This document shows, piece after piece, positions 1-52,110 of a DNA stretch of 64,000 nt. Position 1 is the first letter of the stretch, and the number at the start of each line of letters is the position of its first letter. Below the pieces are notes generated by a model that saw nothing but the letters and a program-made list of their open reading frames with translations, ran no database searches and was not told where the DNA came from. The DNA lies in contig WHVD01000001.1 of the NCBI GenBank assembly GCA_015178975.1, positions 3,038,001 to 3,102,000 on the forward strand, in the 5' to 3' direction. This DNA comes from Hysterangium stoloniferum. Lineage: Eukaryota > Basidiomycota > Agaricomycetes > Hysterangiales > Hysterangiaceae. The position numbers and the translations under genes were made by a program.

Positions 1-191
1 CGACACTCGACTTGTCCTTCGGTTCTGATCGATATCTCACCGAAAGGAACTCCTTAGGATTAGTCTTCACCCATCCGAAATTCAAGGACACCCTATGGAT
101 ATTTGCAAGGGTGCAGCACATAAGCTGAAACCAAGTCCTTCCAATCAGTCCCTGTCGGCCACCAACACTAGTTAGTTTTCAGTTCTTAACA
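1..191 (+). repeat. LTR fragment, 3' end (element A family)
   Basis: This is the last 191 bp of a gypsy LTR in plus orientation. It matches the LTRs at 3072-3810 and 11660-12398 (read in reverse) and the solo LTR at 13710-14443, and ends in the family signature TTCTTAACA. The 5' part lies outside the window, so it cannot be told whether this is a solo LTR or the end of a full element. From 192 to 381 nothing recognisable follows except AT-rich sequence and two decayed 18-bp units just before 382. Confidence 0.85.
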
Positions 192-381
192 CCGTGTGTC
201 ACAATGGTGCGACCGCTTTCAATGGCAGTGGCGGCGGTGTGATTACATAATCATTCTCGCACTGTGCCTGCACTGCTACATGTAGATATAGTTAGAATAA
301 ATTAAATTCAAAAATAAATGGCAAAAATATATATTATATATATTGCCCTGACATTTCCATTCTAATGTGACTTTCTGTTCT

Positions 382-2969: not shown

Positions 2970-3071
2970 TCCATTCTGCAAACACTTTCCGTTCTGCAAA
3001 CACTTTCCGTTCTGCAAACACTTTCCGTTCTGCAAACACTTTCCATTCTGATGTCACTTTCCATTCTGACG
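2970..3071. repeat. 18-bp minisatellite D (4 copies) and array edge
   Basis: Four copies of TTTCCGTTCTGCAAACAC followed by TTTCCATTCTGATGTCAC and TTTCCATTCTGACG. The last unit is cut by the insertion of element A at 3072. The interrupted array resumes at 12399. Confidence 0.9.
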
Positions 3072-3810
3072 TGTTAAGAACTGAAAACTGACTAATGTCG
3101 GTGGCCGACAGGGACCGATCGGAAGGACTTGGCTTCAGCTTATGTGCTGCACCCTCACAAATATCCGTAGGGTGTCCTTAGATTTTGGACGGGCGAAGAC
3201 TAATCCTAAAGAGTTCCCTTCGGCGAGATACCGATCGGGACTGAAGGAAAAGTCGAGTGTCGGGCCAAGGGGTTGGGACCAGGAGTGGGTGAGTGCACAC
3301 GAAGGCGGATGAGGGGATTCTTAGTATGAGACTGTTACAGATGTATGAGGGTATTCTGAGTCGATATTCCGATTGCCTAGTAACTACAACTACAGTGGGT
3401 TCATATACAAGTAACAGGCATCTAGAAAATACTAACAGGGGGAAAGGCAGAAAACGGTATTAACAATAAGCTTGACTAGGAACAGGAGGTTTATGATTAG
3501 TTTGGAGGCCGATGATAACCGAGAATGGGATTACGGTAAAAGGAAATAGTTCAAGAACTACAAATATAGATAGACATATGTAAAACATAGGATAGAACAG
3601 ATCAACCTAATAAAAGGGGATGTATCAAAAGTTTAACCAGATAGTACAAGTATAGTTTGACGTGGGCGTAAACGGAGTTTGATCACCACGAAAGCATACG
3701 TCAGCTTCAGGGGCCGATCGTCTCCAATATGGTGACTTGAATAGTGAATTGGATCGTCAATAAGTGGCGATAACCTCGGTGACCGATAGGGTTGTGACAC
3801 GGTCGTAACA
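3072..3810 (-). repeat. 3' LTR of element A
   Basis: 739-bp LTR, nearly identical to 11660-12398. It begins TGTTAAGAACTG on the plus strand and ends GGTCGTAACA. On the element strand this reads TGTTACGACC...CAGTTCTTAACA. Confidence 0.95.
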
Positions 3811-3826
3811 GTATCTCCCCTTTTGG
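3811..3826 (-). promoter_or_regulatory. Polypurine tract of element A
   Basis: On the element (minus) strand AAAAGGGGAGATAC directly precedes the 3' LTR. This is the purine-rich primer site for second-strand synthesis expected at this position in LTR retrotransposons. Confidence 0.75.
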
Positions 3827-3985
3827 CCGAAATCCCAAGGAGGCCAAAAATCTAGATCCCGTACATAAAAAACTTGTCGGGTATGGTTGGGTGTGTCAAA
3901 ACATCATGTGACTCGGCAAAATTTTACATATAAGAATTCGAGGGGTGTCCGCGCTAGATTCTTCACTTCTTTTCCCTTGACCACC

Positions 3986-4976
3986 ATGACCATAGGGTCG
4001 GGGTCGAAACCATTCCCGGTTAGGTTGACTGTCACTCCCATGTCGGGGCCGAGTGGGCCACCTAGCGCGCAGGAACGTTGTTGTTTACTTGAGCAGAAGA
4101 GAAAAGCGCATGAAGAGGAGGAGCGGAAGGAGAAGGAGGAGTTGGCGGCCATCGAGGCTGAGGAGAAGAAACAGGCGGCGGAAGAGGCCACGTGCAAGCA
4201 CTGGGATGCAGTGGTTGCAAAGAAAAAGCAGCAGGAGGCCGATCGGGCACGAGAGGAGGCGGCAAAGAAGAAGTGGGAGGGGAAGGTAAGTCAGCTCCGG
4301 TTTCTTTTGCGAACCCTGCTGACTTATATATTTTTTTTCAGCACAAGGCTGCAACGCCTTCGGAGTCCAATGATGAGGAGGAAGAGGAGGACGAGGAGGA
4401 TGCACTGGGGCCGTCAAGCCCCAAGGTGGGTTCGGTTTCCTAAATAAAAACTCTTCTAATAATTTTTTTTTTTAGAAACAAAAGCAGGCCCCAAAGGTGG
4501 GGCCCGAAAATGACCCTAAGTGCAACCAGTGCACAAAACGGGGTCGAACTTGCCATCCTCAGGCCAATGGTCGGGGCCACACTTGTCAAGAGTGTGCCAA
4601 TCAGAAGCTTGGATGTGTCTTCCCGGGGGCTGATGGATCGTTTCAGGAGCGACAGGCCGATGCTCTGGAAGAGAAAAACCGCCTTATGTGGACTTATTTC
4701 TCGGAAATGACTCGGTTCCGATTCGAGACTCTGCGACAACAAGGGCTCATGACTGAGCAGTTACGGCTTTTGGGTGTTGGGCTGGAGAAGCAGACCAGCG
4801 TTATCGAGTCCCTTGGGGGTCAGCTTGAGCAGTACTTAGAAGTCTCAAGTTGCGATGGAGTTGGGCACGAGATTGGGGTGTCGGAAAAGGTTGGTGGAGC
4901 CGTATCGGTGGCTGTTGGTGCGGGGGGAGGTTCGGAAGCTGGAGAGGAAGGGGAAGTTGTAGAAGAAGAAACTTAG
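3986..4976 (+). CDS. Antisense three-exon gene in element A: coiled-coil / Zn2Cys6-like protein
   Basis: Predicted exons 3986-4285, 4342-4425 and 4476-4976 (294 aa). The introns, 4286-4341 (GTAAGT...TTTTCAG) and 4426-4475 (GTGGGT...TTTTAG), are both phase 0, and the frame is open throughout. The start at 3986 lies in the favourable context CACCATGA; an upstream in-frame ATG exists at 3887. Residues about 45-100 are Glu/Lys/Arg-rich and likely coiled coil, and residues 110-120 are acidic. Cysteines 144, 147, 154, 165, 168 and 175 give C-x2-C-x6-C-x10-C-x2-C-x6-C, the spacing of the fungal Zn2Cys6 DNA-binding domain, with a basic KRGR between the second and third. A heptad-like helical stretch follows and the tail is acidic. 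The gene lies between the pol stop (5073) and the 3' LTR, opposite to gag-pol and tail-to-tail with pol. A TATA-like ATAAAAAA lies near 3865. The DNA-binding role is inferred from the motif; the target is unknown. Confidence 0.72.
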
Positions 4977-5072: not shown

Positions 5073-6945
5073 TTATAAAGAATTTAGAGGACCGGGTTTA
5101 TTCGGATAAGCTTGGTGAAACCCTAAGACGATTTCCGAGGCATTACCGAGCTCTGTAGCTAGGATCCATGAAGTTTCTTCATCTGTACCTTCATAGCCAG
5201 CCCATTTAACCAAATAAAGTAATTTGCATGAGCGTCGGCGATTATCGATTTTTGAGTCTAGGATCACTGATATCTCGAATTCGGGTTCTCCATCAATGAT
5301 CACGGGTGGAGGTGGTGGTTGTATGTGATCCGGTATACTGTTAGCAACACAAGGTTCTAACATAGATACATGAAATACTGGGTGCACTGCACGCATGTTA
5401 TCGGGGAGCCGAAGTGTCCATGAAAGTGTGCCGGCTTGTGCTATAACTTCAAAAGGACCTAAATATTTTTCAGAGAGCTTCTTAGAAGGTCTAGTAGTTC
5501 GGAAAAACTCGGCTTTAATGAATACTCGGTCTCCGATCTTGAAATCAGGAGGTGGAAGTCAGTTCTTATCCGCAGACCGTTGGTATTGTTCTTGAGCCAT
5601 TGCGATAGTTTTATGAAGTTCTTGATGTAGCTCGTCAAGGTTTATAACAAAGTCTTGAGCACGGGTGGATGCGAGATCACGTTCTGGGTGGATTGCGATG
5701 TTGGGGTTGTAGCCTTTATTTGCGAAGAAAGGCAAAATGCCAGTAGTGGCATTCAGTGCGTTGTTATATGCAAATTCGGCTAGCGGTAGTAGTGATTTCC
5801 AATTGTCTTGTTGATAGTTGCAATAGACACGGATGTACTGTTCCAAAGTTTGATTCATGTATTCGGTTTGGCCGTCACCTTCTGGGTGATATCCCGAAGT
5901 GAAATGTAATTTCATGTCTAGTGCTTTTCCGAGTGACCTAAAAAAGTGAGAGACAAACTCAGATCCGTGATCGGATGTGACATGCGATGGAACACCATGC
6001 TTGGAAAATACATGGGTGATCAATAATTCGGCTAACTGTACAGATATTATCGTGTCATATGTTGGAATGAAAATACTTTGCTTTGAGAGCTGATCTACAA
6101 CAACTAGGATTGCTGTGTGACCTTCAGATGCCGGTAGGTGCTCGATGAAATCCATAGAAATTGAGTTCCAAGGTTTTTCCAGTATCGGTAATTGTTTGAG
6201 TAGGCCATATGGTTTGTGTCGCTGTGATTTAGAGCATAAACACGTAGTACAAGATTTACAATAGTGCTTAACAAAATCTTGGATGCCGGGCCATGTATAT
6301 TCTCTTCTAATGAGTGAGAGAGTCTTATTGAGGCCGAAATGTCCCAAGATTGGGTGATCGTGTTTATGTTGTAGGATTCGAAGCCGAAGTGTGTCGGAAT
6401 CTGGTACATAAATGTGATTGTCAATTTTAATGAAACCTTGTGAGTCTAATGACCATCGGGGTTGATCGGGGTCAGATGGGTTATCGAGGTGTGCTTTGGT
6501 GACTGGGTCTAATAAAATTGCCAATAGTATGTCTTGATGTAACTTTTCGGTATCCATAAGGATAACACTTCGCAAGACTGGATGAATGAGGTAAGTGGCT
6601 CGGATAGACGCGGACAGTTGTTCCGATGAAAACATAGGCTTGAAATTATGTGGATTAACTGTGGCGTAGTCGCTACTCCCCTCTTTAGGGTAGACATCCC
6701 ATCATCTAGTCATAGCATCGTGTTTTCCACCAAGGCGGCCGGGACGGAAGCGAATTACCATGTTGAAAGCAGAGAGGTATTTGGACCATCGAGCTTGTCG
6801 ACGGGTGAGAAGTTTTGTGGTTGAAAAGTAAACTAAATTTTTGTGGTCGGTAATAACATCTATCGGGTGGGCCGATCCCTCCAAATAATGTTGCCATGTC
6901 TTGAAAGCTTTGAATATTGCAAGTAGTTCCTTATCGTGAACATCA
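5073..6945 (-). pseudogene. pol: pol of element A, 3' part: end of RNase H, integrase, chromodomain
   Basis: Continues the pol reading frame beyond the Tc1 insertion. 6702-6945 encodes the end of RNase H ([25 protein letters not shown]). A TGA then follows Thr-Arg at the RNase H-integrase junction (about 6703), just before WDVYPKEG. 5559-6635 encodes the integrase: zinc-binding H-H-C-C region (HFGLNKT...YCKSCTTC) and the D,D-35-E core (SMDFIEHLP, SDHGSEFVSHF, HPEGDGQTEYMNQTLEQYI). After another stop, 5073-5396 encodes the GPY-like end (HPVFHVSML) and a chromodomain (LYLVKWAGY...EETSWI), which marks the chromovirus clade and suggests targeting to modified histones. It is broken by in-frame stops. 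Confidence 0.85.
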
Positions 6946-6947
6946 TA

Positions 6948-8542
6948 CAGTGACCCAAAAAAGCATCCAGATGTTTGGTGAAATTGGAAAGATGGGTTTG
7001 CAGCTCCAGAAATAAAATAGATAACATTCTGAATAAATCAGAGGTAAGAGGTATACATCTGACCTACATGATGACATAAGCATGACATCATAGCTTTCCT
7101 TATCAGGGAAGTAGGAAATGAACAATGGACATGGTACATCCAGACATTCTTTTTGCTCTGTCAACTGATATATGAAACTCAACTAAGGTTCATATAACTG
7201 TGGGAATTTCTGGTTAGGTTCAACAATGTCATGTGACCACATGTTTAAATAACACATTTACATGAACCTTTGCCTCAATTCACCCCCCCACCACATGATG
7301 AAGAAGCACTCTACTGAAACAAGGCTCTCTGTCATTTCTCTTCTCCAGGAGGGTCACTCCTGCAGAACAATTGCTTCTAAACTTCATATTGGGCACTCTA
7401 CAGTATCAGAAATTCTCTCCCAACTCCCTGGTCCACTTCCAACACCTTCCAGAGGTTGTCCTCCCAAACTCTCCTCCAGGGATCATCACCACCTGGCTCA
7501 TTCTATCACCTCTGGACAGGTTGATAATGCCTCCCAAGCCAAGTCCCACCTCTCCCTCAATGTCTGCACACAGACAATTAGAAATGCATTGAAGAAAGAG
7601 AATTTGAAGGCTGTGGTGAAGGCCAAAAGACCTCTTCTTGCCTGTCGACACATCAAGGCTCGATATGAGTTTGCTATCAAGTACCAGCATTGGACTGAGG
7701 AGGACTGGTTTAGGGTTATCTTCTCAGATAAGACCAAAATCAATCGTTTGGGCTCTGATGGGAGGTTGTGGGTATGGAAAGGACCAGGTTCTGCACTCAC
7801 TCATCAGCATATCAATGGAACTATCAAATTTGGAGGGGTGAGTCTAATGATTTGGGGATGTATGACAGCACATGGTGTCGGGTACATGTGAAAGATAGAT
7901 GGGAGGATGGATGGGGAGATGTACAAGGACATATTGGAGGACTATATCTTCAAAACAGTGGAGTATTATGGGATGGACAGGGAAAGGTTTGTCTTCCAGC
8001 AGGACAATGACCCTAAACACACTTGCAAGTTGGCCAAGGATTGGTTCAAGGACCATCAGGTGGAGGTTTTAGACTGGCCTGCACAGTCTCCAGACCTGAA
8101 TCCAATAGAACACTTATGGTGGGAGTTGAAGAGAAGGCTTGGAACATACCCTGAGGCACCCAAGAGCATATTGGAGCTCTGGGAGAGAGTGGAGGTGGAA
8201 TGGGAGGGTATTCCAAGGGAGAAATGCCTTGAATTGATCAAGAGCATGCCTAGAAGGGTTGCTGCAGTACTAAAGGCCAAGGGGGGGTACACTAAATACT
8301 GAAACTGGTAAAAACTAGTAATTAATTACAAGAGCAAAAAAAGTGTCCAGATGCACCATGTCCATTATTAATTTCCTACTTTCCTGATAAGGAAAGCCAT
8401 AATGTCATGCTTATGTCATCATGTAGGTCAGATGTATACCTCTTACCTCTGATTTATTCAGAATTTTATCTATTTTATTTCTGGAGCTGTAAACCTATCT
8501 TTCCAATTTCACCAAACATCTGGACACTTTTTTGGGTCACTG
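6948..8542 (+). mobile_element. Tc1/mariner transposon in element A RNase H
   Basis: 1,595 bp, starting CAGTGACCC and ending GGGTCACTG, flanked by the TA duplication (6946-6947 and 8543-8544). The terminal inverted repeats are long, 211 bp each (6948-7158 and 8332-8542). The inner edge of each repeat carries a tip-like motif in inverted orientation, suggesting paired transposase-binding sites. The insertion cuts the RNase H sequence between APELNY and HDKELL; element B keeps the empty site near 48233. Transposase is on the plus strand. Confidence 0.93.
7262..8302 (+). pseudogene. Tc1-type DD34E transposase with one in-frame stop
   Basis: 346 codons on the plus strand, centred between the inverted repeats. 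The N-terminus has helix-turn-helix DNA-binding segments (TRLSVISLLQEG, TIASKLHIGHSTVSEIL). The catalytic triad is present: Asp in IFSDKTK, Asp in QQDNDPKH and Glu in SPDLNPIEHLW, with exactly 34 residues between the last two. The only visible lesion is a TGA at 7889-7891 just after HGVGYM; the frame continues unchanged to 8302. Start codons at 7262 and 7295 are both possible. It would catalyse cut-and-paste transposition into TA. One substitution from an open frame suggests recent activity in the genome, possibly in sister copies. Confidence 0.9.
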
Positions 8543-8544
8543 TA

Positions 8545-11621: not shown

Positions 11622-11659
11622 GATTAAACGGAAAATGCAAGTGTGAAATCAGAATATAC

Positions 11660-12398
11660 TGTTAAGAACTGAAAACTGACTAATGTCGGTGGCCGACAGG
11701 GACCGATCGGAAGGACTTGGCTTCAGCTTATGTGCTGCGCCCTCACAAATATCCGTAGGGTGTCCTTAGATTTCGGACGGGCAAAGACTAATCATAAAGA
11801 GTTCCTTTCGGTGAGATACTGATTGGGACCAAAGGACAAGTCGAGTGTCGGGCCAAGGGGTCGGGGCCGGGAGTGGGTGAGTGCATGCGAAGGTGGATGA
11901 GGGGATTCTTAGTATGAGACTGTTACAGACGTATGAGGGTATTCTGAGTCAATATTCCGATTGCCTAGTAACTACAACTACAGTGGGTTCATATACAAGT
12001 AACAGGCATCTAGAAAATACTAACGGGGGGAAAGACAGAAAACGGTATTAACAATAAGCTTGACTAGGAACGGGAGGTTTATGATTAGTTCGGAGGCCGA
12101 TGATAACCGAGAATGGGATTATGGTAAAAGGAAATAGTTCAAGAACTACAAATATAGATAGACATATGTGAAACATAGGATAGAACAGATCAACCTAATA
12201 AAAGGGGACGTATCAAAAGTTTAACCAGATAGTACAAATATAGTTTGACGTGGGCGTAAATGGAGTTTGATCACCACGAAAGCATACATCAGCTTCGGGG
12301 GCCAATGGTCTCCGATATGGTGACTTGAATAGTGACTTGGATCATCGATAAGTGGCAATAACCTTGGTGACTGATAGGGTTGTGACACGGTCATAACA
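11660..12398 (-). repeat. 5' LTR of element A
   Basis: 739 bp, same termini as the partner at 3072-3810, with a modest number of substitutions between the two, many of them CG/TG or CG/CA. The flank 12399-12403 is TGACG, the target duplication. Confidence 0.95.
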
Positions 12399-12880
12399 TG
12401 ACGTCACTTTCCATTCTGAAGTCACTTTCCGTTCTGACGTCACTTTCCGTTCTGACGTCACGTTCTGACGTCACTTTCCGTTCTGACGTCACTTTCCGTT
12501 CTGACGTCACTTTCCGTTCTGACGTCACTTTCCGTTCTGACGTCACTTTCCGTTCTGACGTCACTTTCCGTTCTGACGTCACTTTCCGTTCTGACGTCAC
12601 TTTCCGTTCTGACGTCACTTTCCGTTCTGACGTCACTTTCCGTTCTGACGTCACTTTCCGTTCTGACGTCACTTTCCGTTCTGACGTCACTTTCCGTTCT
12701 GACGTCACTTTCCGTTCTGACGTCACTTTCCGTTCTGACGTCACTTTCCGTTCTGACGTCACTTTCCGTTCTGACGTCACTTTCCGTTCTGACGTCACTT
12801 TCCGTTCTGACGTCACTTTCCGTTCTGACGTCACTTTCCGTTCTGACGTCACTTTCCGTTCTGACGTCACTTTCCGTTCT
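12399..12880. repeat. 18-bp minisatellite E with TGACGTCA palindromes (about 26 copies)
   Basis: Tandem unit TTTCCGTTCTGACGTCAC, almost perfect, with one shortened unit at about 12455-12470. Every unit contains the palindrome TGACGTCA, the consensus cAMP-response/ATF bZIP site, giving roughly 25 sites at 18-bp spacing. It is the continuation of arrays A-D, separated from them by element A. Confidence 0.95.
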
Positions 12881-46271: not shown

Positions 46272-46274
46272 CTG

Positions 46275-49200
46275 ATCTTGAAATCAGGAGGCAGAAGTCG
46301 ATTCTTATCCGCAGACCGTTGGTATCATTCTTGGGCCATTGTGATAGTTTTACGAAGTTCTTGATGTAGCTCTTCAAGGTTTGTAACAAAGTCTTGAGTG
46401 TGGGTGGATGCGAGATTGTGTTCCAGGTGGATCGCAATATTGGGGTTGTAGCCTTTGTTTGGGAAGAAAGGCGAAATGCCAGTAGTGGCATTCGGTGCGT
46501 TGTTATATGCGAATTCGGCTAGTGGTAGTAGTGATTTCCAATTATCTTGTTGATAGTTACAATAGACACAGATGTACTGTTCCAAGGTTTGATTCATGCA
46601 TTTGGTTTGGCTGTCACCTTCCAGGTGATAGCCCAAAGTGAAGTGTAATTTCATGTCTAGTGCTTTTCTGAGTGACCTAAAAAAGTGAGAGACAAACTCG
46701 GATCCGTGATCGGATGTGACATGCGATGGAACACCATGCTTGGAAAATACATGGGTGACGAATAATTTGGCTAACTGTACAGATGTTATCATGTCATATG
46801 TTGGAATGAAGATACTTTGCTTAGTGAGCCAATCCACAACAACTAGGATTGCTGTATGACCTTCAGATGCTGGTAGGTGCTCGATGAAATCCATAGAAAT
46901 CGAGTTCCAGGGTTTTTCTGGTATTGGTAACTGTTTGAGTAGGCCATATAGTTTATGTCGCTGTGATTTAGAGTGTAGACACGTTGTACAAGATTTGCAA
47001 TAGTGCTTAATGAAATCTCAGATGCCGGGCCCTATATATTCTCTTCTAATGAGTGATAGAGTCTTATTGAGGCCGAAATGTCCCAAGATCAGGTGATCGT
47101 GCTTATGTTGTAAGATTCACAGCCGAAGGGTGTCGGAATCTGGTACATAGATGCGGTTGTCAAGTCTAATGAAACCTTGTGAGTCTAATGACCATCAGGG
47201 TTGATCAGGGTTGGATGGGTTATCAAGGTGTGCTTTGGTGACTGGGTCTGATGGAATTGCCGATAATATATCTTGATGTAATTTCTCGGTATCCATAAGA
47301 ATAACACTCCGCAAGACTGGATGAATGAGGTAAGTGGCTCAGTGTTACGACCCGTTCCCGGATGTTTCAATATCCAACTTCTGATCTCCGACTACAGAAC
47401 ATCATAGTTACCGTATCATCTGTATCCTCCCTTGTTCCACATTTGGTAATTTGTCCGTCGACAAGTATTCACTCGTTTGTTTGTTATATTCCCATTTCAG
47501 AATATTGTCTCCCTAATATGTCTTATTGTATTTCCGTTTTAAGAACACTTCCGTTTCCGTCTTATTATGGTCTTAGTTTGTAGTACAATAATGAGAAGAC
47601 TTATATTAGTTTCTGCAAATTTGTACTTTACCTTAGATCTGATATCGACTTAGTTTCTTATTCCTCCTCCTGTCTTTCTGTACACTCTATATTCGGAACT
47701 CTTTGGAACTCTTAATATCTGTATCTTCCATCGTAAATCTCACCTTTGAAATTAAGGACTTCGAGCGTTTGCGTAGAGGCGCAGCACATAAGCTGAAGCC
47801 AACGTCCTGACCCTACCGGACAGTTCCCGAGTTCCCGGTGACTTCCCGATAGTTCCGGAATAAGTTCCCGACACGGCACTTAACACTCAGATAGATGCGG
47901 ACAGTTGTTCCGATGAAAACATAGGCTTGAAATTATGTGGATTAACTGTGGTGTAGTCACTACTCCCCTCTTTAGGATAGACGTCCCATCATCTAGTCAT
48001 AGCATCGGGTTTTCCACCAAGGCGGCTGGGACGGAAGCTGATTACCATATTGAAAGCAGAGAGGTATTTGGACCATTGGGCTTGCTGATGGGTGAGGAGT
48101 TTTGTGGTTGAAAAGTAAACCAAATTCTTGTGGTTGGTAATAACATCTATCAGGTGAGCCGATCCCTCCAAATAATGTCGCCAAATTTTGAAAGCTTCGA
48201 ATATCACAAGTAGTTCTTTATCGTGAACATCATAGTTGAGTTTGGGTGCCGAAAATGTGCGAGACAAAAAAGCTACTGGGTGTACTTCACCATCAGTGTC
48301 CAGAATGGACAATATTGCAGCAAGCGCATAATCCGAGGCATCAGTTTCCACAATAAGTTGAATGTCAGGTTTCCAGTGCGACAAAATAGGGGCAGATGTA
48401 AATGCACTTTTCAAATCTTGGAATGCCATTCGGCATTCTTCGGAGAAATTCCATGGGGCGTCTTTACGAGTAAGACAAGTGAGCAGAATGGTAATTTTTG
48501 AGTAGTTGTGAATGAAACGTCGGTAAAAATTGGCGAAGCCTAAAAAAGATTGAATATCTTTAACCTTTCAGGGTTCCGGCCAATCTTGAATGACTTGAAT
48601 TTTGGAGTTGTCCATGTGGAGACCGTCAGGTCCCATCATGAAACCTAAATATTCAACTGTGTCAACATCAAAAGAACATTTTTTACCATTTGCAAAAAGA
48701 CCATGTTTTTGGAGTCTTCGGAGGACTTCACAAATGTGTTCATCATGAAGTGTGGGATCTTCGGAGAATATGAGAATGTTGTCTAAGTACACAATGATGA
48801 AGACATCAAGGAGATCAGAAAAAACGTCATTGATAAAACGTTGAAAGACCGATGGAGCATTGGTGAGGCTGAAGGGCATCACTAACCATTCGAAGGAGCC
48901 ATAGCGAGTGCGAAAAGCCGTTTTCCATTCATCGCCTTCGGCGATCTGAACCAAATGATAGGCATGTTTGAGATCTATCTTTGTATAGATTCGGGCCTTC
49001 TGAGGGGCATCGAGTAAATCAGAGATTAGTGGTAATGGGTACTTATCTTTTCGAGTGATCGCATTTAGTCCTCGAAAATCAATGCAAAGCTGAAGGGAAC
49101 CGTCTTTTTTCCGAATGAATAGGACAGGGGCTCCATAAGGAGACTTTGAGGGTCGGATAAAACCTATAGCCAAATGTTCATCCAAGAAATCTCGGATAGC

Positions 49201-50060
49201 CGATAATTCGGACTGTGAGAGAGGATAAATTGGGCCTAGGGGCAGATGTAAACCTTCTTCCATATCAATTTTCAAACCATAAGGCCTGTGAGGGGCAAGT
49301 CGATCAGCTTTTTGTTTACTGAAGACATCTGCAAATTCATGGTATTTTTCTGGAACACCTTCTAAATCTGTGATAGGTTCAGTCACCGGGGATGCAAAGT
49401 GGCCGGTGACTTTGTCAACTTTAAGATTGACTGTAAATGCTCGGGAGCTGTCCAACTTGATGGCTCTCATAAAAGCTGCGGCATGTATTAGAGAGATGGG
49501 TGGCAGAGAGCTCAGATTTGCCACGGGGGCTGGAGGTGCCATAGAGGCCATATTTGCCAAAACGGGTGGAAATGGACCAGTCGTATTGGGTGCTGATGGG
49601 GTTTGGAAATGGATACTGCCCAATACCCAATCAATCAATGGATTGTAGCGGGTGAGCCAGTTATGTCCTAGAACCACGGAGCAGCTCGGGTCCAACTGTA
49701 TTACAAAAAACGTAACTGTCTGAAAGGTTCCACATGAGAACCAAAGTCAGAGTTCGCAGGCTTTTGAGATTACAGAGTTTGAGGTACCATCAAAGAGTCA
49801 GAGCGGAATTGGATCTATTGCATATGTTTTTAACTGATTTTTTAGGGAAAAACTTGTATCTATAAAACAATGGGTTGAACCTGAATCTATGAGAGCTTGA
49901 AAAGAGAGACTCCCGAGGGGTTCCGAAGTAAGATTTATGAACAAGGAATCAGGATCATACAGAGTGGATGCATTAAGATGGCAATTTTCCAGTGTGTGGG
50001 GAGATTCAATGCAACTCTCCAACTGCACGGAATCCAGAGAGTTGCTTAATCTTTTTTTGA
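46275..50060 (-). pseudogene. pol: pol of element B
   Basis: Protease ALIDSGSTHCFID (about 49875). The RT at 48568-49695 has a catalytic box altered to YLDN (48778-48789), a G-to-A change in a CpG. RNase H at 47989-48429 is uninterrupted (VETDASDYALAAIL...[10 protein letters not shown]), showing the empty Tc1 site. The TGA at the RNase H-integrase junction is shared with A, D and F. Integrase is split by the solo LTR at 47343-47885; its core (SMDFIEHLP, SDHGSEFVSHF) is at 46325-46894. Several further stops fit CGA to TGA. Confidence 0.88.
47343..47885 (+). repeat. Solo LTR (second family), target duplication CTCAG
   Basis: 543 bp, TGTTACGACCCG...GCACTTAACA, flanked by CTCAG at 47338-47342 and 47886-47890. 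It is related to 53429-54011 and distinct in its middle from the element A LTRs, but shares the TAAGCTGAAGCC block. Confidence 0.92.
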
Positions 50061-51351
50061 CTCAGCAGCCAGCTTAGCTGGTTGTGAGGTTGTGGCCATA
50101 TTGGCTGATCGGGCTTTTGTGGCCTTCGGGCATGCGGCAACTCGGTGTCCGGGATCTGCACACAACAAACAAAGGTTGTTGTCCATTTGGCATTGCTTTT
50201 CCTGTGGTAGGAGTTTGCCATCAGAGCCGGGTTTGCCAGTTAAGTCGGGTTTGTCTTTGTCTTGAGACTTATTTGACTGTTTGCCCTTGCCTTTTTTGTT
50301 GTTAGAACCCTTGTTTTCGGATTTCTTATCGGAATTCAAGTTGCTACTATTGCTGGTGTTTTGATTACCAGACTTGTTGGCATTCTTATTGTCTGATGAT
50401 TTTTTATCCAATGGGTTTTCGCGACTAATTTCCAAATGTCGTTCCCAGTATCAGGCATCTGCGTTTTGGGCCTTTAGATGCATGAGGGGGTGAGTCTTCA
50501 GTTGGCTGGTCTCTCCTTTAGAAACTTCGTCTTTGAGGCGAAATGGGAGGCCGGAGTAAAACTGGTAACAGAGGGCCGAATCGTTCCAGTCGCAATGCGC
50601 AGTGAGGTTGTTGAAGTGGACGATGTAGTCGGTGATGTGCTGGGTGTCTTTCATTTTGAGGTTAGAAAGCACGGTTTCAGCATTGCCGGTCTGGTCGTAG
50701 AGACCGAAGTTTGTTTCGAGTTCCTCAACAAAGGCATCCCAGTCATGAAGCCAATTGGGATCCTCAGATGTGAGGCCAGAGAATGCAGGTTTAAACCAGG
50801 CTGCTGTGGAATCCTTAAGGTATGAAAGTGCAAGGTTTACCTTTTGGTCATCCATTGCGAATGCAGCTGGGCGGTCCCAAAAGTTGAATCGACATTGCAT
50901 ATGAAATGTCGGCAATTTCTTCGGGTTTGAGCCAGTAAACAGTTTGGGTTTGTTGACTCGGGTTTGCCCAGGTTCTTTTTCCTTGGTATTGTTTTTAAGG
51001 AATTCGTTAAGGGATCCTAGGGTACCTGAAAACAATTCCCATGTCTTGTCGGGATCGAAATCCGGTTTTTGTTTTGTGGACTTCTTAGAACCACTGGCCT
51101 GAGGTACAGGTTGGTCACCATCCTCGGGTTCAGGTTCCGGAGCCGATTGATTGTCATCCCTTTCGGGTGCTTCAGGTTTGGTTGCTTCAGTAACTTCTTC
51201 AGCATCACCAGTAATATCCACAAAGTGGGATTCTTCGGAGGTTTCTGGTTGCGGGGTTCTCAGAGTAGCTCATGCTGTATACAAGAAAGGAGACTTGAGA
51301 TTGGAAGATTCTGCTTCACCACTTGGCTTGGCATCTTTTTTTCTCAGAGGC
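50046..51351 (-). pseudogene. gag: gag of element B
   Basis: Starts MPLRKKDAKPSGEAES at 51351. Capsid-like region 50451-51221 and CCHC knuckle CLLCADPGHRVAAC near 50140. In-frame TGAs lie near 51270 (CGA in element A) and at about 50452 (Asp-Ala-stop-Tyr-Trp). The gag end carries the in-frame slippery heptamer A-AAA-AAA (50052-50058), then GAT TAA. Reading continues into pol by a -1 shift. Confidence 0.88.
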
Positions 51352-51390
51352 ATGATTAACGGAAAATGCGAGTGTGAAATGAGAATATAC

Positions 51391-52110
51391 TGCTAAGAAC
51401 TGAAAACTGACTGATGTCAGTTGGCCAATGGGGACCGATTGGAAGGACTTGGCTTCAGCTTATGTGCTGCGCCCTCACAATTATCTGTTGGGTGTCCTTA
51501 GATTTCAGGCAGATGAAGACTGGTCCTCACGAATACCTCTCGGCGAGTGGCCAATCGGAAATGAAGGATAAGTTGAGTGTCAGGCCAAGGGGTCGGGGAC
51601 TGAGGGTGGGCAAGCGCATGCAAAGGTGGATGGCGGGATACTTAGTATGGTGTATTCTGAGTTGATATTCTGATTGCCTAGTAACTACAAATACAGCGAG
51701 TTCATATACAAGTATTCGGCATCTAGAATTACTAACTAGGAGAAGAGCAGAAAATGGTATTGACAAATAAACTTGACTAGGAACGGGAAGGTTGTGATTA
51801 GTTCAGAGGCCGGGGAATAACCGAGAACGGAATTACAAGAAAAGGAAATAGTCCAAGGGTTACATGTATATATAGACATATGTGAAACATAGAGTAAAAC
51901 GGATCATCATAATGAAAAGGGACGTATCAGAGTTAAACCAGATAGTACGAGTATATTTGACGGGGGCGTAAACAGAGTTTGATTGCCACGAAAGCATATG
52001 TCAGCATCGGGAAGCTGACAGCTTCCGATGTGGGGACTTGAGTGATGACTTGAATTGTTGATAGGTGGCAATAACCTCGGGGACCGTCGGGTTGCAACAC
52101 AGTTGTAGCA
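51391..52110 (-). repeat. 5' LTR of element B
   Basis: 720 bp with mutated ends (TGCTAAG...TTGTAGCA on the plus strand). It matches the element A LTRs along its length. Confidence 0.9.

Follow-up and report, generated by a model that had tools for sequence, protein, structure and literature searches.

Grande opened a series of descriptions of antisense accessory genes in LTR retrotransposons, and the function of such genes is treated as open (PMC7264820). In plants, an antisense ORF between pol and the 3' LTR (aORF-3R) is described for Grande (gene23), RIRE2 and Retand (TRP28), and the word 'intron' is absent from the main text of both papers cited here (PMC7264820, PMC11963269). Boty/BcGypsy1 of Botrytis cinerea and Sclerotinia sclerotiorum is likewise presented as carrying an additional antisense gene, brtn (PMC7264820, PMC8365987). 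In HTLV-1, expression is lowered by HBZ, a bZIP-type protein, and in the account that covers the antisense products of HTLV-1 to -4, APH-3 and APH-4 inhibit LTR activity and APH-2 inhibits viral replication (PMC10186651). The VANC proteins of VANDAL transposons are characterized as sequence-specific, TE-encoded anti-silencing factors (PMC5735166, PMC10398659).

Here, we analyzed a gene of comparable layout in an element of the basidiomycete Hysterangium stoloniferum (genome of 111 Mb in 554 contigs), located on the minus strand of a 64,000-nt stretch (positions 3,038,001-3,102,000), hereafter the window. In position, orientation and presence in most copies (here, next to 125 of the 150 best pol 3' ends), the gene resembles the plant aORF-3R as described in these sources; unlike them, it belongs to a fungal chromovirus, has two predicted introns in the frame, found no protein match in the searches given below and appears to undergo version exchange. 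The likeness to brtn, drawn by description only, is that of a fungal LTR element with an additional antisense gene; the host of Boty is an ascomycete, unlike the present one. With HBZ and APH-2/3/4, as they are described, the gene shares the layout of a spliced antisense gene near the 3' LTR, splicing being predicted in our case. An antisense gene in such a position is already known from Grande, Retand, Boty brtn and HBZ; the divergence island and the probable exchange are new here. Among the papers listed by our literature search (titles and abstract openings, with few subscription journals), there was no basidiomycete case, no such gene with introns and no cassette exchange.

The element is delimited by the following features:

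3067..3071, no strand: target site duplication TGACG, left copy
3072..3810, minus strand: 3' LTR, with U3 at about 3375-3810 provided that sense transcription starts near 3374 as predicted
3814..3824, minus strand: polypurine tract (sense strand AAAAGGGGAGA), adjoining the 3' LTR, named by eye
5073..5396, minus strand: C-terminal end of pol with the chromodomain (Pfam Chromo, 25.9 bits, cut-off 25.1)
5559..6635, minus strand: integrase part of pol (Pfam Integrase_H2C2 and rve)
11660..12398, minus strand: 5' LTR, 94.6% identical to the 3' LTR
12399..12403, no strand: target site duplication TGACG, right copy

The LTRs, the TGACG duplication, the integrase and the chromodomain that ends pol (just above the cut-off) define the element as a Ty3/gypsy chromovirus, with the pol stop at 5073 on the minus strand. 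Among the matches listed for the integrase, the sole named organism was Trametes cinnabarina (64%). In those fetched copies in which an LTR pair was found, the two LTRs are 92.7%-99.9% identical, so the family moved recently, with the antisense gene aboard.

Inside pol of the element, an insertion at 6946-8544 contains transposase-like frames and has inverted arms of 214 nt (93%); by eye, it is mariner/Tc1-like. A second related element lies in the same orientation at 46274-52110, its internal parts being 88.6-90.4% identical and its LTR 78% identical to those of the first, and it has no match to the 3' part that bears the antisense gene. A piece of LTR is repeated in inverted orientation (window 1-192 vs 3071-3262, 89%), and the two are separated by long tandem-repeat runs, in many of which the unit has 18 bases. 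Directly after the 5' LTR, 11 bases (ATATTCTGATT, 11647-11657) are complementary to the LTR stretch 3363-3374, about 35 nt downstream of a TATA-like site; complementarity of 9-11 bases occurs in 10 of the 12 copies checked, with 8 bases at another spot for the window copy and none for L039 (where the LTR end is set differently). We take this arrangement to resemble the self-priming of Tf1/sushi elements.

The antisense gene and its predicted control region occupy the opposite strand between the 3' LTR and the end of pol:

3811..3985, plus strand: antisense leader and predicted promoter region, between the LTR and the ATG
3929..3934, plus strand: TATA box of the predicted antisense promoter, 57 nt before the ATG
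3986..4285, plus strand: exon 1, 100 codons, N-terminal tail and charged coiled-coil-like stretch, ATG in CCACCATGA context
4286..4341, plus strand: predicted intron 1, 56 nt, phase 0, GT..AG (45-56 nt among the copies read)
4342..4425, plus strand: exon 2, 28 codons, acidic stretch
4426..4475, plus strand: predicted intron 2, 50 nt, phase 0, GT..AG (46-62 nt among the copies read)
4476..4976, plus strand: exon 3, 166 codons and stop, cysteine motif, long helix and acidic tail
4521..4616, plus strand: six-cysteine motif C-x2-C-x6-C-x10-C-x2-C-x6-C, Zn2Cys6-like spacing
4638..4844, plus strand: predicted long helix, exon 3 residues 55-123 (AlphaFold2, one sequence)

The earlier note on this DNA had described three exons with two canonical phase-0 introns in one unbroken frame, placed between the pol stop and the 3' LTR of an element with target duplications, and all of this is borne out: the exons join to 885 nt (294 codons and TAG) with no internal stop, opposite to gag-pol, between the stop at 5073 and the LTR, with TGACG on both sides. 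Both predicted introns were found in 54 of 54 copies read; every copy has a GT donor at each intron, and the AG acceptor is present in 54 (intron 1) and 53 (intron 2); in most copies, a branch-like CTGAC lies close to the 3' end of intron 1, and an ATG is present at the aligned start in 52 of the 54. Of 53 exon indels, 42 have a length divisible by three, vs 49 of 248 in introns (each copy was compared with the window copy, so the counts are non-independent; three copies were omitted). The retention of the introns in all 54 copies fits replication via the sense RNA, as the note had supposed: running against the genomic RNA, the introns would be invisible to its splicing and would thus survive each round of retrotransposition. 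Another argument of the note, namely that an intact gene beside broken gag and pol is telling, fails. The window copy has 1 stop in gag and 4 in pol on aligned columns (about 1565 codons), from which simple arithmetic gives about 0.9 expected stops in 294 codons and a chance of zero stops near 0.39; the intact gene in this single broken copy is therefore no evidence, and we rejected it as a sign of host use.

Two oddities were seen among the copies. L012, L013 and L022 have both a frame change and an altered stop of exon 3 in common, which may mean that a defective gene went on being copied or that these three are duplicates. In the diverged copy L053, the start of exon 1 is replaced by a tandem array of EKEEHK codons.

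The earlier note compared the layout to that of antisense genes read from the 3' LTR of deltaretroviruses. The alignments point elsewhere: of 52 copies, 49 have a TATA box no more than 90 nt from the ATG, 45 of them at -57 (the three copies without a match include L052, whose locus boundary falls just within the box), and it lies outside the LTR, between the polypurine tract and the ATG. An internal antisense promoter is therefore a better prediction than an LTR start, although an additional antisense start may lie inside the 3' LTR. With such a promoter, the element would differ from HTLV, where antisense transcription is described as starting in the 3' LTR; for Grande gene23, the accounts give a promoter upstream of the gene and a nuclear protein, to which the internal promoter predicted here compares.

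The gene is a family-wide feature. Searching the genome with the window protein produced 215 matches, and searching with the exon-3 protein of a diverged version of the gene (the far version, represented by L054) produced 151 (best candidates scored in each case); together, these searches identify at least 172 distinct exon-3 places. Among the 150 best-scoring pol 3' ends, 125 are accompanied by a listed gene at most 900 nt away on the opposite strand; for the other 25, there is no gene among the matches listed, although some of these pol ends may have one. In the 53 copies looked at, an LTR was found at the expected place and orientation in 48 and the pol end in 49. The spliced frame is open in 8 of the 29 copies L003-L031, which are the top rows of the protein search, and in 15 of the 20 copies L032-L051, which were chosen for a stop-free exon 3; given this choice by rank or by stop-free exon 3, these rates are no estimate for the family.

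When substitutions were compared over all pairs of 50 close copies, codon positions 1, 2 and 3 differed by 0.060, 0.074 and 0.164, respectively, and aligned intron columns by 0.123, below the third positions. The comparison of dN/dS with that of gag, which the earlier note had put forward, shows similar constraint in the window copy: the values (NG86) against 14 full copies were 0.11-0.17 for the gene, with gag at 0.13-0.23 and pol at 0.12-0.25. When all pairs with dS above 0.08 are taken, however, the median for the gene (0.254, 71 pairs, up to 0.55) was higher than those for gag (0.163, 78 pairs) and pol (0.148, 73 pairs). The gene is constrained, yet less so than gag and pol by the all-pairs median. 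Between the window copy and L054, dN/dS was 0.15 (dN 0.245, dS 1.62, near saturation). Family-wide presence, kept introns, low dN/dS and the conserved TATA box identify a real accessory protein gene under purifying selection. These results bear on the alternative that the antisense RNA itself is the product, acting as dsRNA or by interference with the sense RNA, with the frame being secondary. Any such transcript would overlap the 3' end of the genomic RNA, and regulation of retroelements by antisense RNA is a topic of PMC7264820, but dN/dS of 0.11-0.18, the third-position excess, the in-frame exon indels and the conserved cysteines all signify selection on a protein, and we regard this alternative as very improbable.

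The encoded protein combines a charged coiled-coil-like stretch (exon 1), an acidic run (exon 2), and the cysteines and long helix of exon 3. The Zn2Cys6 (GAL4-type) pattern is C-x2-C-x6-C-x5-12-C-x2-C-x6-8-C, and the cysteine spacing of exon 3 fits it; among the 48 copies with an exon 3 that is a multiple of three in length, 46 keep the spacing, and all six cysteines are invariant across a 12-row alignment. As in fungal Zn2Cys6 factors, the same spacing is followed by a predicted long helix, but unlike these factors, the protein goes unrecognized by Pfam Zn_clus and is weak in profile comparison. Specifically, the window protein had no match in Pfam at E ≤ 1; Zn_clus (PF00172) reached 4 of 12 copies (best E 0.18), none above the cut-off; a Zn_clus scan of the genome marked 76 places, by eye none at a listed gene place; and hhalign gave a probability of 43.8% over 12 columns (pairwise E 0.00024), a weak result obtained against five domain sequences. 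Solved structures (PDB) yielded no convincing match, and Foldseek, run with a low-confidence single-sequence model, no match at E ≤ 0.001. The designation Zn2Cys6 in the earlier note thus stands for the spacing and its conservation in other copies, whereas the domain is not confirmed by Pfam, the genome scan, hhalign or Foldseek; the protein can be called Zn2Cys6-like by spacing only. In the AlphaFold2 model, the ten-residue blocks from 61 to 120, within the long helix that is possibly a dimerization coiled coil, have pLDDT of 85-96, and short helices (14-21 and 37-43) lie over the two C-x2-C pairs, with pLDDT of the cysteine region near 57.

Our leading, if tentative, reading is that this accessory gene of a chromodomain Ty3/gypsy family encodes a dimeric DNA-binding protein that regulates sense transcription at the family's own LTRs. 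The antisense mRNA, transcribed from the internal TATA box, would be spliced and then translated; the protein would enter the nucleus, pair through the long helix, bind DNA via a cysteine motif that presumably holds zinc, and act on the LTRs of its own family. We favor feedback of the HBZ/APH type, of either sign; HBZ and the APH proteins, as described, serve as an analogy of layout for such feedback, the effect on the LTR being one that we infer. DNA binding, likewise a proposal here, is suspected for Retand TRP28 in the description of that protein. Host chromatin, which the earlier note named next to the element as a possible object of control, would be a further putative target. The distribution of constraint against L054 counts against a DNA-binding regulator: the cysteine region (70% identical) has a dN/dS of 0.20 and is not the most constrained part, which is the exon 1 coil (66% identical, 0.06), followed by the helix (64%, 0.11), whereas the tail is the least conserved (47%, 0.27). 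The same distribution speaks for an accessory protein that is not a transcription regulator but has a structural role or handles nucleic acids, for instance in nuclear entry, in RNA packaging or in choosing the integration site. The coiled coil, the cysteine motif and the basic patch after the acidic stretch would also suit nucleic-acid chaperones, and GENE23 of Grande is given as nuclear with its role unknown (PMC7264820). However, the predicted promoter of its own and the introns would uncouple the gene from the gag-pol mRNA, which is unusual for a particle component, and we consider such a protein unlikely.

Outside this genome, homologue searches returned no homologue with residues 130-250 (24 candidates) or with the exon-3 alignment (7993 candidates scored), and the antisense gene was found neither in viral contigs nor in prokaryote genome contigs. 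As a control, the neighboring integrase finds 2986 relatives in the same protein set, so related elements are present there; the absence of homologues is nonetheless weak, because the short exon frames of a spliced gene may be uncalled in that set. A scan with the integrase gave no match in viral contigs; elsewhere, it found a single distant element (41% identity), whose record is titled as a Bacteroidetes MAG (L059); past its pol, there are minus-strand frames of 154 and 207 codons, with no six-cysteine motif by eye.

Within the family, the gene forms an island of divergence: proteins about 62% identical lie between flanks that are 82-96% identical, which makes exchange of versions by recombination between lineages the most likely explanation, probably through template switching between co-packaged RNAs. 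Far-type genes, defined by 78% or more identity to L054, occupy at least 32 places, eight of which, L054 included, have exon 3 identical to that of L054, and they adjoin 22 of the 150 best pol ends. The clean case of exchange is C40, a broken copy that ends near 5650 and has a far gene. Compared with the window copy, its LTR and leader are 82-92% identical, the gene 59-81%, and the sequence from there into pol 86-96% (chromodomain dS 0.12); the corresponding distances are 1.23 for the gene, 0.175 for the LTR and 0.076 for pol. In C100, divergence begins in U3 and reaches as far as the chromodomain (dS 0.80, dN 0.015), after which identity is 89-98%; one fixed unit of exchange was rejected, as the divergent block of this copy includes part of U3 and the chromodomain. 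The gene, LTR and pol trees of 44 copies (9 of the 53 were dropped for a missing flank) reject each other in AU tests, which used 5000 resamplings and fast-search trees, a number of resamplings that the program warned was too few.

A locally raised mutation rate or relaxed constraint could also produce such an island. All 14 copies compared with the window copy are indeed more divergent in the gene block (9-19% different) than up to the pol end (3-11%), and the all-pairs median dN/dS of the gene is above those of gag and pol. Against this, L039 and L049 differ from the window copy by only 0.057-0.091 in the block, near the 0.040-0.100 seen elsewhere along the element, one and the same far version is flanked by two distinct types of sequence, and the trees conflict; an origin of the island by raised mutation or relaxed constraint is improbable, and exchange by recombination is retained as the explanation.

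The relationship between the gene version and U3 bears on what the protein might do. Where far-type U3 runs past the LTR end, a far gene adjoins 15 of the 18 places listed, with none among the matches listed for the other 3, and 16 of 31 far genes are without far U3 among the matches listed. Strict co-inheritance of U3 and gene version was rejected by C40, where a far gene lies beside a window-like U3, so the two are not strictly linked. This lack of strict linkage weighs against regulation at the LTRs and also against an anti-silencing factor that, like VANC, would bind the noncoding DNA of its own family and relieve host DNA methylation. In favor of such a factor, the copies decay mainly by C-to-T and G-to-A changes at CpG (14.4% of CpG cells vs 3.5-4.0% of other C/G cells), which suggests that the elements are methylated; diverged versions coexist in the genome; and the gene's own predicted promoter could stay active when the LTR is silenced. 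We rank anti-silencing second, as a rather unlikely role, and regulation at the LTRs first.

Two further observations concern CpG sites. In copies of the gene, CpG decay turns arginine codons into W, Q or stop. The LTR has 7 CGG/CCG pairs where 2.3 would be expected (p = 0.024, post hoc), and these lie at decaying CpG sites; as a weak, after-the-fact signal, these pairs are not relied on as LTR binding sites.

A more specific, and doubtful, proposal builds on both the exchange and the putative regulator. The gene would be a swappable specificity cassette, in which old, diverged allotypes of one DNA-binding regulator coexist in the genome and are traded between near-identical backbones by template switching, each lineage controlling or un-silencing different LTRs.

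Taken as a whole, the evidence for a selected protein is strong, and the structure of its gene is only sensible if it is expressed antisense. The case illustrates a way for introns to be maintained in an element whose replication passes through RNA, and the probable natural swaps of versions make the function of the protein testable. If the specificity-cassette proposal is true, these swaps would amount to a self-recognition system inside a retrotransposon family.
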